A stretch of DNA of 64,000 bases from contig NZ_LMPD01000002.1 in assembly GCF_001424305.1 (NCBI RefSeq), positions 419,531-483,530 on the forward strand, in the 5' to 3' direction. The stretch's first letter is position 1. Each line of letters begins with the position of its first letter. A program made the translations under genes and the position numbers. Below the pieces are notes generated by a model, which saw nothing but the letters and a program-made list of their open reading frames with translations, was not told the DNA's origin and searched no databases. Origin of the DNA: Pedobacter sp. Leaf176 (lineage in GTDB: Bacteria; Bacteroidota; Bacteroidia; Sphingobacteriales; Sphingobacteriaceae). Of the stretch, positions 28,853 through 39,794 are shown piece after piece.

Positions 28853-29251
28853 AGGCTAAATCTGGTTTAAGTACTCAGATAACACGCCGGTAGAAAAATG
28901 GTTTAGGATAAAGACAAAATGGAATGGTTCTTAGCAGAGATGGAGTGCATTTCGGGAGTAATTAACCGACTTAGAGAACTTAAGCTCCTTCTTAGTTCAA
29001 AGTACGACCCCTTGGCCATCACTAAATAATTTAATGTGTGATGACATCTTGAGCCGATCCAAGTAAGTTAACACTACGGTTATGTAAATACGACATAATT
29101 AGAATTTGAACGGGATTAGCAAAAAACTGATGTATTTTTAAAGTAAGTTAGATAAACGTATACTAATAGTTAAGGGATTAGAAGCTTTTTGATTTAACAA
29201 ATCAATACCTAACCATACACTTTAAATTGTTCAAAAAAATATAGTATCCAT
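28853..29251. other. Intergenic region upstream of the molybdenum hydroxylase operon
   Basis: The 399-nt gap must contain the operon promoter. It is AT-rich from about 29000 on, marking the start of an AT-rich island. No gene, RNA or clear operator was recognised. Confidence 0.35.
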
Positions 29252-29515
29252 CTAGACCATTTTATCAAATCCTTCTCCAAAAAAATCGGTAAGGCTGATA
29301 TCCAACGCGGTGAGCACTTTTAGTAGCGATGTAAAACGAAAGTCTTCCCCATTCTCATATCTCCAAAGTTGCGTACGGCTAAGGTTACGTTTGAAGGCGA
29401 ACTTTTCATAATTAGGCTCACCCTTAGCTTCTCTTATAGACCGTATCCGGGCGCCAACCATTTTCAAAACTTGCTTCGCATTTTCAACCTCTTGATCATT
29501 TTTAACTCTTGTCAT
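29252..29515 (-). CDS. XRE-family helix-turn-helix regulator
   Basis: An 87-residue protein with one HTH_3 domain. Residues 20-75 contain RIRSIREAKGEPNYEKFAFKRNLSRTQLWRYENGEDFRFTSLLKVLTALDISLTDFF in a typical XRE order, where LSRTQLWRYENG includes the recognition helix and LTALDI the closing helix. There is no effector domain, so it may be a phage-type or toxin-antitoxin-type repressor. A set of four 14-bp direct repeats lies about 43-97 nt upstream of its start. It is the first gene at the left edge of the AT-rich island. Confidence 0.8.
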   Translation of the reverse strand: MTRVKNDQEVENAKQVLKMVGARIRSIREAKGEPNYEKFAFKRNLSRTQLWRYENGEDFRFTSLLKVLTALDISLTDFFGEGFDKMV

Positions 29516-29557
29516 GCAGTAAAGTAAATTAAAATGATGCGCTTTAGGTACCCCTAT

Positions 29558-29613
29558 TTAGAAACATCTTATTAGATACATCTATTAAGATACATCTAAT
29601 TAGAAACATAAAT
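29558..29613. repeat. Four tandem 14-bp direct repeats upstream of the XRE gene
   Basis: Units begin at 29558, 29572, 29586 and 29600: TTAGAAACATCTTA, TTAGATACATCTAT, TAAGATACATCTAA and TTAGAAACATAAAT. The common core is T(T/A)AGA(A/T)ACAT. The exact 14-nt spacing places the units 1.3 helical turns apart. An autoregulatory binding array for the XRE protein is likely; a plasmid-like iteron set is the other reading. Confidence 0.6.
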
Positions 29614-30233
29614 ATTATATTATCTGTTTTGTAGATATATTGAAAAAAAAGAAACCGAGGAAATTATGCATATTACTTTTCACGAGCTCATTTTTAGTAC
29701 CAGTTTTGTAATTCTTGGGAATTAATGGGTTTCAAGAAATTGAAAGACGGAGTTCTTATACGCGGAATAGTTGATCAATAATAAAGGGTTTAGCTATGCA
29801 TGGCTAGGAGAGCTAGTGCATACTTGAATAAGAAAGGATTGTTAAATTTGTTCAGCCAATGCCGGGAAATTCTGATTAATCTGTTGTAGCATTCATAGTA
29901 AAAAATCCTACACACATGGCCGTATGTTGGTTAACACTGTACATTTCTTTACTCAGGCTACCAGTCGAAATTACAGATTCTGTTGATCTAATGCTCGGCG
30001 AAATCTTTACCAGCCATCGGCAAACTGGTCATATTTTATATAATAGATTCGGCTCCTTTCAGCCTAAGGCAATTCCTATATTAAATCATATATAAGTATA
30101 ATTTTGTGTTATTACCTGCAAATTCATCAGGAAAAAGACATGTGAGGCGTAGCAGAGAGTTTAAATTCAGCTCCATTTTTGATTCGCTTAAACGCGAAAA
30201 AAAATCAGAAATTTAGCTTTGACAGCGATTTAC
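29614..30233. other. AT-rich region without a supported gene
   Basis: About 620 nt between the direct repeats and the next small gene. The only frames are short and broken. It may hold old gene remains, but I could not match any to a family. Confidence 0.35.
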
Positions 30234-30503
30234 TTAACTTTTCACGCCTTCAATTTTACCCTCTTCAATCAAAGTTTCTATGGCTCTAACCAATTCTATC
30301 AAACTGTCGAAAACTTCACTAACCTGCTCCTCGCCAATATCTAACTTTAAAAAGCCACTTTTATCATTTAATGCATAACCCTGAAATGCTTCCAACAGAG
30401 TCAGCTTTACCTTATCAATAGTGTGGGTGTTATAAAATGATTCGATCATTTGGGCAGGTGTTTTCGAATTTATATCTTCAAGGTTTGAATCAGACGTACT
30501 CAT
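30234..30503 (-). CDS. Small protein of unknown function
   Basis: An 89-residue acidic, helical protein with no membrane segment or known motif. Residues 15-60 (TPAQMIESFYNTHTIDKVKLTLLEAFQGYALNDKSG) suggest two helices and a short linker, and the C-terminus (EVFDSLIELVRAIETLIEEGKI) looks like a coiled-coil-prone helix. It stands alone in the AT-rich island. Codon use fits the AT-rich surroundings. It could be an accessory, plasmid or phage-derived gene; no claim on function. Confidence 0.5.
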   Translation of the reverse strand: MSTSDSNLEDINSKTPAQMIESFYNTHTIDKVKLTLLEAFQGYALNDKSGFLKLDIGEEQVSEVFDSLIELVRAIETLIEEGKIEGVKS

Positions 30504-30717
30504 AAATTGATTAATTTAGCGTATTTGTTGCTTAAAGTTAGTGCAAAATTCGACACTATTATAGCAAAACTCATTAAACGGCTTTTTTTCAAGCCATTGT
30601 ATAGGATGCAACCATCAGCGGTAGTTAAATCTAGGATTTTAGTAATATGATTGATGGGATTTTGATAGGGAAAAGTAATAAATAGAATCTTTATCGCGTT
30701 GAGCGCAGATTTTTTTT

Positions 30718-31069
30718 CTTAAAGAACTTGAAAAAACACGAGTAAAATCAATCAGATATTTGTCGGACGGCATTTTTACCAGACTCACCTTCACTTCATA
30801 GGGCACTTCATGGACAATACATGGATGAAATTCATGACTATGTCTTATGGAACTTTTTATCCCAAAGTCTTCTGTTTTATAACAATCCTTAAAAATGGGA
30901 AGCTATCGTAGGTAGTGCCAATTTTAGCAGCGCAGCATTCCGCATAAAATGAAAAAGGCGTATTGATCACAAGCGAAGACAGTGGCATCAATATGTGTCA
31001 CTAGATCAAGATCAATTAATCAAAACTTGGAACAACGCAAAAAAAATTGACACAACAATTTTGAACTAA
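30718..31069 (+). pseudogene. Broken phospholipase-D-like gene fragment
   Basis: The stretch holds scattered pieces that match a PLD-type domain: IRYLSDGIFT in one frame near 30757, IVGSANFSSAAFR at 30905-30943 in a second, NEKGVLITSEDSGIN just after it in a third, and LIKTWNNAKKID near the end. Frame changes and in-frame stops (TGA at 30950) separate them. The GSANFS-type motif followed by an NE pair is the most typical part of the PLD active-site region. Remains of a PLD nuclease or helicase-associated PLD protein are the likely origin, and the gene is no longer functional. Confidence 0.45.
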
Positions 31070-31320
31070 TATTGAAGGTGATCGGAAATACAACAGTCAA
31101 AAATAAATTCACTTTCGTGAATAGAAAATAAGCAAAATCTTTGCATAACTTATTTGAGCATTCCGATCATTTCTAGGAATATTTTGCAACTTCACTAAAA
31201 GGAAACTGTCCATTTTCACTTGTCGTTGAAATAGTTTTTTTTAGTTACCCATTACCACTCACGTATGATAGAAGTCTGACTGAACAGCATTAAGCTAGCA
31301 AAATACCAAATGAAAAATCT

Positions 31321-31575
31321 CTATTTAAAGGTCTCCTCAATAAAACGACTCATATTATTTAATTCGTCAACTTCTTTCGCAACTAATGACTCATCACGCT
31401 TCCTGAGCAACATGTCAACTTCTTTCCCAGTTATCATTCGGTATTTACCATTTTGGCTATCACCAATTTTACTCCTTAGAACTTTTTTAACCACCTTTTG
31501 CCCGTCACCAAGAACTACTAATCGGCGACCGCTTTTGGGAATTATTACATGCTTTTTACTACTATATTTTTTCAT
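31321..31575 (-). CDS. Small basic protein downstream of the zeta-like kinase
   Basis: An 84-residue, Lys/Arg-rich protein (MKKYSSKKHVIIPKSGRR at the start, helical C-terminus MLLRKRDESLVAKEVDELNN). Its ATG overlaps the stop of the kinase gene by the ATGA arrangement, so the two are translationally coupled. No family is recognised. Basic charge and a helical tail would fit nucleic-acid binding, an antitoxin-like partner, or a modifier of the kinase, but none of these is shown. It is the third gene of a compact operon in an AT-rich island. Confidence 0.6.
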   Translation of the reverse strand: MKKYSSKKHVIIPKSGRRLVVLGDGQKVVKKVLRSKIGDSQNGKYRMITGKEVDMLLRKRDESLVAKEVDELNNMSRFIEETFK

Positions 31576-32213
31576 AAAAATAAATTTACAGGACTATCAT
31601 CTGTTAAATTAGCACATTTCGGTCCATCACCATAGGGAACATCAGTCGAAACTTCGCCAAAACTTGCAAATAGTTCTGACTCTCGTTGTTTTGCGTAATA
31701 ATAATTTAGAGTAGGCTCGTTACTGTAGCAATCGAATATTAACCCCAATGGTACATATCGGTTAGTCTTAATATAACGTTCTATCGCTCTATGTGTTGCC
31801 TTTTGTCTGTCCAAATTAACCAAAATCAGATGAACCTCATAACCGGCAGAATTTTTTAAAGAATCAGCATATTTAATTAAAGAAACATAATCCTGCCCAA
31901 CTGTGGGATAAACAAAATTCATTCCTAATTTAATTACTTTTTCACTCAAAGTTTCAAAAGGCTGATCAATTGTCATTTTGCCTGGAAACACAATTCCACC
32001 AGATTCTGCATGAACCAAAGAGGCGCCACTCTTAAAACCACCAAATTCAGGCAGTTTTCTTTTAGCATAATCAGAGTCTAAGATAATCGCAGAATATTCA
32101 TCAGCGATTCGGTTTGCTATACCAGATTTACCTGATGCCGGGAGTCCGATTATTATAAAGGCTTTCTTTTGACTTCTAGCACCTCCAACCGGTATTGCGC
32201 CCCCTACCCCAAA
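31572..32213 (-). CDS. Zeta-toxin-like P-loop kinase, start codon uncertain
   Basis: The open frame (stop to stop, about 213 codons) contains the Walker A motif GLPASGKSGIAN near residue 24, IILDSDYAKRKLP as the next strand with an acidic pair, ESGGIVFPGKM, and the late arginine motif ATHRAIERYIKTNRYVP. This order matches zeta/PezT-type toxins that phosphorylate UDP-N-acetylglucosamine. No ATG or GTG lies upstream of the Walker A motif; TTG at 32016 would cut the P-loop off. Candidates are a non-standard ATA at 32193-32195 or a -1 frameshift from the upstream gene. The 3' end is coupled to the small basic protein. Confidence 0.7.
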   Translation of the reverse strand, partial: FGVGGAIPVGGARSQKKAFIIIGLPASGKSGIANRIADEYSAIILDSDYAKRKLPEFGGFKSGASLVHAESGGIVFPGKMTIDQPFETLSEKVIKLGMNFVYPTVGQDYVSLIKYADSLKNSAGYEVHLILVNLDRQKATHRAIERYIKTNRYVPLGLIFDCYSNEPTLNYYYAKQRESELFASFGEVSTDVPYGDGPKCANLTDDSPVNLFL

Positions 32214-32476
32214 TTAATTTTTTCGTCGTCCACTAGACGTTCGAGAGTTAATAATTCTTCGACTATTTTTGTCCTAAGTTGCCACCTGGATTCGTCCGTG
32301 GCATAGGCTGGCAATCTGTTCCTGCGACTCGAACTAGTTTGTTCATGCTCCGTAATAGTCATCAATTCCGCGTCAACAAAACTCCCTAGAAGGTTTTCAT
32401 CTATAGAATATTTAATCGCTTTAAAAAAATGGTCAAATGATTCCACATCATTTAGCCTGCGAGAGAAGTTACCCAT
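32204..32476 (-). CDS. Small protein upstream of the zeta-like kinase, possible antitoxin
   Basis: A 90-residue acidic protein, MGNFSRRLNDVESFDHFF at the start, a helical middle and an acidic C-terminus (EELLTLERLVDDEKINLG). It ends just inside the 5' part of the kinase frame, in the -1 relation. The last codons AAT TTG GGG and the stop TAG form a U UUG GGG heptamer immediately before the stop. In toxin-antitoxin pairs with zeta kinases the antitoxin is normally a small helical protein encoded just upstream, so this gene is a candidate. Not recognised by sequence. Confidence 0.55.
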   Translation of the reverse strand: MGNFSRRLNDVESFDHFFKAIKYSIDENLLGSFVDAELMTITEHEQTSSSRRNRLPAYATDESRWQLRTKIVEELLTLERLVDDEKINLG

Positions 32477-32573
32477 TTAAATTTTATACTTAAAGCATAA
32501 ATTTAGAAATTAACTCTAATAACTATGAGTGTATTTATAAACATATTAACATCATTTATGCTTCATTAAGAAT

Positions 32574-32812
32574 TTATTCTACGACTGTACGATTTTTCAA
32601 TAATGACCTTTTTGCATACGTTGGAATAGTAACATCTATAATATCAAAAACTTGTTTATACTTTCTTCAACGACGAGCTCTGCTTCATCGTTATATGGAT
32701 AGATTACTTTTGATTTAAGATCCTTTATGAATTCTCCGGAATATTTATGTAATCTTCTTCTAAAATATTTTCTTGCATTTATCTTAGCTCTTGCATAAAC
32801 GTTGAGAAGTAC
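32574..32812 (-). pseudogene. Decayed small gene, family unknown
   Basis: Two minus-strand pieces look coding and join with one frame change. The first (upstream, from about 32812) reads NVYARAKINARKYFRRRLHK and onward to VVEESINKF; the second, shifted by one base, reads VFDIIDVTIPTYAKRSLLKN to a TAA at 32574. No start codon precedes the first piece and a stop lies just before it. It seems to be the remains of a basic, helical protein, but I cannot name the family. Confidence 0.35.
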
Positions 32813-32946
32813 TTAATTGAAATTCTCGAGATCAATGCGATGCTCACATCGGAGTTCTCTATGTATGCTGATTGAATAAGTTTGGAAATAGGAAATCTAG
32901 TTCATCATTAATATAATGATAATAAACACAAAAAACTAACAATCAA

Positions 32947-39684: not shown

Positions 39685-39745
39685 GGCGTAAAAATAGGAT
39701 TAAAAGCGGAAAGCTGAAAGGCCAAAGCATAAAGCGATATCTTGA

Positions 39746-39794
39746 TACCTGATACTTGCTACTTGCTACTCGATACTTGCTACTTGATACTCTC
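39746..39794. repeat. Seven tandem heptamers upstream of the arginine deiminase gene
   Basis: The units are TACCTGA, TACTTGC, TACTTGC, TACTCGA, TACTTGC, TACTTGA and TACTCTC in exact 7-nt register. They end 6 nt before the promoter -33 box. A short version (TTGATACTTGATACT, 41349-41363) is also directly in front of the CtlX start. Whether the array binds a protein or is a slippage product cannot be told from the sequence. Confidence 0.6.

Follow-up and report, generated by a model that had tools for sequence, protein, structure and literature searches.

Upstream of a gene for an 87-aa XRE (Cro/C1-type HTH) protein in Pedobacter sp. Leaf176 stands an ordered array of 14-bp units whose register is fixed to the start codon. 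Many relatives carry these evenly spaced likely sites equally far from their own start codons, so that XRE is probably a self-controlling switch, and we consider it quite probable that it binds its own array and autoregulates. An activating step, also predicted from the arrangement of the sites, is given slightly under an even chance.

The array, its gene and the promoter

The DNA analysed, referred to as the window, comprises 64,000 nt of Pedobacter sp. Leaf176 (GCF_001424305.1, contig NZ_LMPD01000002.1, positions 419,531-483,530, forward strand); the genome of 4.75 Mb is distributed over 9 contigs, and the window's contig measures 769 kb. The features discussed are the following, with the evidence for each in brackets:

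29252-29515, minus strand: intact XRE (Cro/C1-type HTH) gene, 87 aa, proposed controller-like autoregulator (ORF, HTH profiles, PDB and Foldseek matches)
29519-29526, minus strand: predicted -7 box TACTTTAC, 3 nt before the ATG (sequence, T[AG]NTTT counts; consensus from PMC7366714)
29543-29557, from 29544, minus strand: degenerate promoter-proximal fifth unit TTAGGTACCCCTAT with GGTACC, GT at -36 (same register)
29552-29563, minus strand: proposed operator palindrome 1 TTCTAAATAGGG, axis -42.5 (axis ranks first, 24 representatives)
29558-29611, plus strand: four 14-bp units of the preliminary description (repeat detection, mismatch count)
29566-29577, minus strand: proposed operator palindrome 2 ATCTAATAAGAT, axis -56.5 (axis ranks second)
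29580-29591, minus strand: proposed operator palindrome 3 ATCTTAATAGAT, axis -70.5 (window sequence on axis)
29594-29605, minus strand: proposed operator palindrome 4 TTCTAATTAGAT, axis -84.5 (window sequence; extra rung relative to orthologues)
29651-29815, plus strand: remnant of the small divergent gene, 79 aa in the module (tblastn E=8e-6, 59 columns at 41% identity)
29816-29986, minus strand: remnant of the 382-aa gene, C-terminal part (tblastn E=3e-5, 59 columns at 42% identity)

The four 14-bp units given in the preliminary description were recovered at 29558, 29572, 29586 and 29600, with spacings of 14, 14 and 14. The first of them begins 43 nt from the XRE start codon at 29515, in agreement with the distance of about 43 nt given there, and the G+C content drops from 0.46-0.50 to about 0.35 at the array, which thus does lie at the edge of an AT-rich island. 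Measured against TTAGAWACATCT, the units carry 0, 0, 1 and 2 mismatches. The degenerate fifth unit TTAGGTACCCCTAT had been overlooked, as had the palindromes, the likely leaderless promoter and the orphan status of this copy of a module; the repeat search took the fifth unit as the reference copy. The period-14 signal reached 6.47 at the array and a maximum of 5.01 over 300 dinucleotide shuffles of positions 28853-32946, which bears out the earlier view that the exact period is not that of random AT-rich repeats. A single 12-mer, allowing up to 2 mismatches, gave 24 matches in the window compared with 15.5 expected, and 4 of 100 shuffles reached 24; as this exceeds expectation only slightly, the evidence is the ordered array and not the word. 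Searched over the whole genome with up to 3 mismatches, a two-unit pattern gave 5 matches, 4 of them overlapping at the window array and one in front of the paralogous XRE gene of contig C7, and its reversed control gave zero matches in the 4.75 Mb. At 0-1 mismatch a three-unit pattern likewise found nothing in this genome but the window and C7 XRE loci; at 3 mismatches it found two further places. A second tandem array of the window (39736-39792, with a period-14 call at 39741) is of GATACTT type with periods of 7, 14 and 21; its score equals that of the XRE array, and its sequence differs.

The XRE array can be read as a row of TCT-nnnn-AGA palindromes whose 4-nt spacers hold a central GT. 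When all axes between -120 and -12 were scored for complementarity across 24 cluster representatives of the wider family, axis -42.5 ranked first (0.44) and axis -56.5 second (0.42), 14 bp apart; the maxima of 300 shuffles averaged 0.382 with a highest value of 0.444, so that the observed 0.44 lies near the top of the null. Within the close group alone, axis -34.5 scored highest, and the dyad axis is less clear there because -34.5, -70.5 and -63.5 all outscore -42.5. The dyad symmetry at -42.5 and -56.5 is suggestive, not overwhelming. A reading in which every palindrome is centred on its GT was rejected, since the representatives favour the axes -42.5 and -56.5 between the GTs.

The predicted -7 box fits the Bacteroidota consensus TAnnTTTG (PMC7366714) and was assessed in a fixed-position test: 17 of 24 representatives and 51 of 74 loci have a T[AG]NTTT that begins 10-12 nt ahead of the ATG, compared with 7 of 371 control ORFs, whose starts are longest-ORF starts and hence partly wrong. 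The box is missing at the tested place in the other 7 of 24 representatives. Because it lies so near the ATG, the XRE mRNA should be leaderless; 5' leaders shorter than 10 nt make up only about 3.7% in Bacteroides thetaiotaomicron (PMC7366714). A -33 box was not evident by eye at the XRE promoter, which is weak evidence because Flavobacterium johnsoniae promoters likewise yielded no -33 motif (PMC7366714).

For the protein, Pfam gave HTH_26 and HTH_3, both slightly below their cut-offs, and PADLOC gave Control_protein (E=9.8e-5). In a phmmer search of the PDB, the controller (C) protein C.AhdI came first (E=4.6e-4), followed by the HTH domains of CapH and PezA and, more weakly, C.BclI and C.Esp1396I. 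An AlphaFold2 monomer model, built from 15 family sequences (pLDDT 82.9, pTM 0.68), retrieved C-protein chains at Foldseek ranks 1-21, with a best E of 1.2e-3 and none at E<=0.001. R47 and T48 of XRE align with R35 and T36 of C.Esp1396I, which are two of the three main base-contacting residues of that protein (PMC4041747); R47 is invariant in the 15-sequence alignment, and the orthologue at L016, outside that alignment, has His there. Of 7 comparisons of XRE with relatives, 4 gave a dN/dS value; these values lie at 0.065-0.148, with a saturated dS of 1.4-2.8. No match to the protein was obtained at E<=1e-5 in 50,697 phage records. In one relative (L011, G048 contig C14) the first 41 codons of the XRE gene are repeated in frame.

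Conservation of the array and its register

XRE homologues were searched at E<=1e-10 in 99 Pedobacter genomes, with matches in 35; at least 67% identity over the whole protein was found at places in 10 of these genomes, including the source genome itself, where a close paralogue of the window XRE (67% identity) lies on C7. Of the 14 upstream sequences, 13 are distinct, counting that of the window, and all can be aligned gap-free from the start codon. Their mean pairwise identity per ten-base bin is 0.66-0.89 between -80 and 0 and 0.30-0.47 above, with a sharp conservation boundary near -80. Counted from the gene, the rungs of most close orthologues read GTACC, GTTTC, GTATC and GTTTC; L002, L017 and L039 each depart from this series in one rung, and the window array has one rung more than the aligned orthologues. 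The same repeats, which the preliminary description had suggested seeking upstream of XRE homologues, are thus present there, ungapped in 13 regions, and most other clusters show a 14-bp ladder, strongest at -36, in constant register with the start codon. This comparison supports the array proposed in that description as probably autoregulatory.

A pattern combining two rungs with the promoter, derived from the close group, was run at up to 2 mismatches over 98 Pedobacter genomes. At 0-1 mismatch it marked 14 places, 13 of which precede an XRE gene of the same family (the G051 gene being broken) and 1 a non-XRE gene in G079; at 2 mismatches most places lie in other parts of the genomes, and some are also obtained with the reversed control pattern. 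Occurrence in unrelated places, which had been named as a point against the reading, is absent from the source genome but seen once in another species. The sequence concerned (L130:3961-4052, G079 contig C4) holds an array of this kind and a leaderless-type promoter before a 213-aa non-XRE ORF without a Pfam match above cut-off, and this ORF is a possible trans target.

The wider family comprised 79 non-redundant loci, excluding L001 and L003-L008 (repeat views of the window and C7, and a weak match), L045 and L046. Five of the 79 (L011, L124, L094, L123, L120) were dropped before counting, their start or upstream region being ambiguous, and the remaining 74 fell into 24 clusters at 60% protein identity, with start codons set via protein alignment and independently of the motif. 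Position -36 holds GT in 17 of 24 representatives and in 53 of 74 loci; the average position gives 1.4 (1.41) and 4.0, respectively. The loci are related by descent, and this kinship inflates the counts. Seven of the 24 representatives have no GT at -36. The next GT positions in the 74 loci are -50 (26), -64 (21) and -78 (16). Without the close cluster, GT is found at -36 in 39 of 60 loci and at -50, -64 and -78 in 12, 7 and 3, compared with about 3.5 at neighbouring positions, which -78 does not exceed. Among the 23 representatives that then remain, 16 have GT at -36 (rotation null maximum 8 in 2000 runs), and the rungs at -50, -64 and -78 sum to 13, with a null mean of 4.1 and the observed sum reached once in 2000. 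The -50, -64 and -78 rungs are therefore much weaker than that at -36, as their counts outside the close cluster are low and the close cluster supplies much of them. Autocorrelation over the 24 representatives peaks at lag 14 (0.371, compared with 0.267 in the 371 control ORFs) and has a z of 8.3 against these controls without the close cluster; lags 13, 15, 17 and 28 are raised too (z about 4 to 5), below lag 14.

Replication across the phylum was weak: of 395 genomes drawn, 16 had a match, and among 14 new homologues, of which 13 come from outside the bacterial family and whose starts are uncertain, 4 have GT at -36; the 14-bp ladder is not clearly reproduced outside the bacterial family. 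The one plasmid-borne relative, on Microscilla pSD15 (56% identity), has GT at -36 and -50 only if translation is taken to start at an ATG 39 nt within the annotated gene. Operator and protein similarity were compared over the 136 pairs of the 17 representatives, which are not independent, with a Spearman coefficient of 0.37 and values of 0.06 and -0.01 for two flanks; over the 53 loci with GT at -36 the coefficient was 0.57, and there the flanks also correlate (0.40 and 0.15).

The intact module and the orphan copy

Seven loci of 18 kb, that of C7 (L052) among them, share a common block ending in the array and XRE. Its order is a large dehydratase ORF, a response regulator, a histidine kinase, a protein of 381-386 aa, a gene of 60-81 aa, the array and XRE, where the small gene is convergent with the 381-386-aa gene and divergent from XRE. 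The exceptions are L050, with the dehydratase split in two ORFs and the small gene shortened, and L047, with a dehydratase listed as 805 aa; L053 is a more distant case of the block. Pfam, run on L052, returned Lant_dehydr_N, Lant_dehydr_C, LytTR, His_kinase, MauE and SusD, and the other module loci were assigned by resemblance. An assignment of the 382-aa neighbour as RteC was rejected because Pfam and NCBIfam gave no such match. The product of the 79-aa gene resembles the C-terminal domain of the RNA polymerase alpha subunit, below cut-off only (E=0.16). No further ladder was seen in the six module loci scanned with a unit matrix, which gave the known arrays and scattered matches only.

In the window, the divergent 79-aa gene and the 382-aa gene are reduced to the remnants listed above, and XRE with its array is an orphan copy of the module that is intact on C7 of the same genome. 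Two other genomes depart from the intact arrangement: in G067 (L131) an insertion parts the small gene from XRE, with an array retained by each, which counts in favour of the proposed switch, and in G051 (L129) a third module copy has a broken XRE, a preserved small gene and no promoter-proximal rung. At L059 the XRE relative is flanked by one ORF matching DndE and one matching DndF, each over its first 70 residues, which would place this family member inside a DNA phosphorothioation system; L057 and L060 are similar by resemblance. The window also holds a 148-aa ORF (31572-32018, minus strand) with a partial Pfam Zeta_toxin match (E=2.9e-7, residues 22-100), which looks like a fragment within the same AT-rich island as the XRE array.

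Proposed switch, rival readings and known controllers

We propose that the 87-aa protein is a controller-type autoregulator whose dimer would bind the TCT-nnnn-AGA palindromes; with four palindromes 14 bp apart, adjacent dimers should aid each other's binding. The first palindrome would be centred about 42 nt upstream of the likely transcription start, and lambda-CI-like activators contact the sigma factor at about -42. This position, together with the fixed register, the palindromes and the lack of an evident -33 box, suggests activation at low XRE concentration, when dimers on the upstream palindromes would probably activate; once the promoter-proximal end (GGTACC) is filled, the promoter would probably be shut off. 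In intact modules, the array between XRE and the divergent 79-aa gene probably serves both, and the window orphan may cross-talk with the C7 module. For C.Esp1396I, activation followed by repression and a strong cooperativity of adjacent dimers are described (PMC4041747, PMC3758141).

The main rival is pure autorepression, in which XRE on the rungs would only repress its own and the divergent promoter in the manner of Cro or an antitoxin; it shares its core with the best explanation, and the odds of the two overlap. Simple autorepression is common among XRE genes and the GGTACC rung overlaps the -33 region, both of which count for this reading, but the first dyad lies near -42, a place typical of activators. 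C proteins, moreover, activate first and repress later (PMC4824078, PMC4041747), and we regard autorepression alone as a real possibility of less than even weight. It is also conceivable, if improbable, that another protein of the module (the 382-aa protein, the 79-aa protein or the LytTR regulator) reads the array and XRE is merely regulated. The three genes are adjacent in the 7 module loci and the LytTR regulator is DNA-binding by Pfam; yet GT also stands at -36 and -50 at L019 (= L055) and L066, whose listed neighbours include none of them, the window keeps its array though the 382-aa and 79-aa genes are remnants, and operator similarity tracks XRE similarity among the representatives. As a variant, a copy of such a protein encoded on C7 may act in trans.

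That the window copy is a dead relic, with regulator and array decaying and inert, would be compatible with the core reading for the intact copies. Both of its neighbours are degraded, but the ORF is intact and has the dN/dS given above, with its saturated dS, and the array has one rung more than its orthologues and retains the promoter block, so that we think this unlikely. That the array is a plasmid iteron, or an AT-rich repeat due to chance or low complexity, is disfavoured already and very improbable: the setting is AT-rich and the window holds the second period-14 array at 39741, yet 0 of 300 shuffles reached the signal and the array is conserved across species. The suggested search for plasmid iterons, run over 72,556 plasmid records, gave no DNA match at E<=0.01, and no replication protein was among the 7 window proteins scanned with Pfam.

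Beyond the autoregulatory switch itself, we tentatively suggest that Bacteroidota possess an unnamed family of controller switches without an R-M (restriction-modification) tie, consisting of a leaderless XRE gene and an extendable ladder locked at -36/-50/-64/-78, in which the operator drifts with the protein and the geometry is fixed. Placed next to lantibiotic-type clusters, genes of Dnd phosphorothioation and other loci, such a family could time the expression of costly genes by a shared kind of switch, its several stacked dimers forming a short protein-DNA filament. If so, timing switches of the R-M controller type would serve other gene sets of Bacteroidota, lantibiotic-type clusters included, and the ladder with its leaderless promoter would be a simple sequence signature for finding them. 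If operator and protein co-vary, the family would offer a natural data set on DNA recognition by controller-type proteins, and with the orphan copy one could test whether a stray regulator cross-talks with an intact cluster of its own genome.

In the titles and abstract openings of the open-licence literature, no description of an XRE-ladder system was found. Several known systems are related to it in part. Operator arrays of the lambda CI and 434 type present neighbouring palindromes to XRE dimers and give a graded response; the window XRE differs from these in its contiguous 14-bp spacing, its single short domain and the lack of a match in the phage records. The class I lanthipeptide clusters of Pedobacter are similar in gene content, as the C7 module likewise lies beside Lant_dehydr_N/Lant_dehydr_C, MauE, SusD, LytTR and histidine kinase genes, whereas the window copy has lost the cluster; the lanthipeptide work on P. 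lusitanus NL19, as it is cited in excerpts of PMC12328550, appears there without mention of XRE or the array.

Nearest by sequence and fold are the R-M controllers of the C.AhdI, C.Esp1396I, C.BclI and C.PvuII type, which, like XRE, are small single-domain HTH proteins. They are autoregulated via tandem palindromes upstream of their own gene, with a GT-centred spacer and, in the cases described, leaderless transcripts (PMC4824078). Their operators have two palindromes with GAC/GTC half-sites, in contrast to four palindromes at 14 bp with TCT/AGA half-sites here, and the classical C-box, GACT-n3-AGTC twice, does not describe the window array. The C-box-like sequence ACTTATAGTC was observed upstream of the distant homologues L172, L173 and L174, which for this reason look like true R-M controllers. 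The 6 neighbouring ORFs of the window scanned with Pfam (28.3-34.3 kb) gave no restriction-modification families; the host promoter is of the Bacteroidota type, and related loci adjoin a lantibiotic dehydratase. The window switch is thus different from the known controllers in sequence, in operator number and in context.
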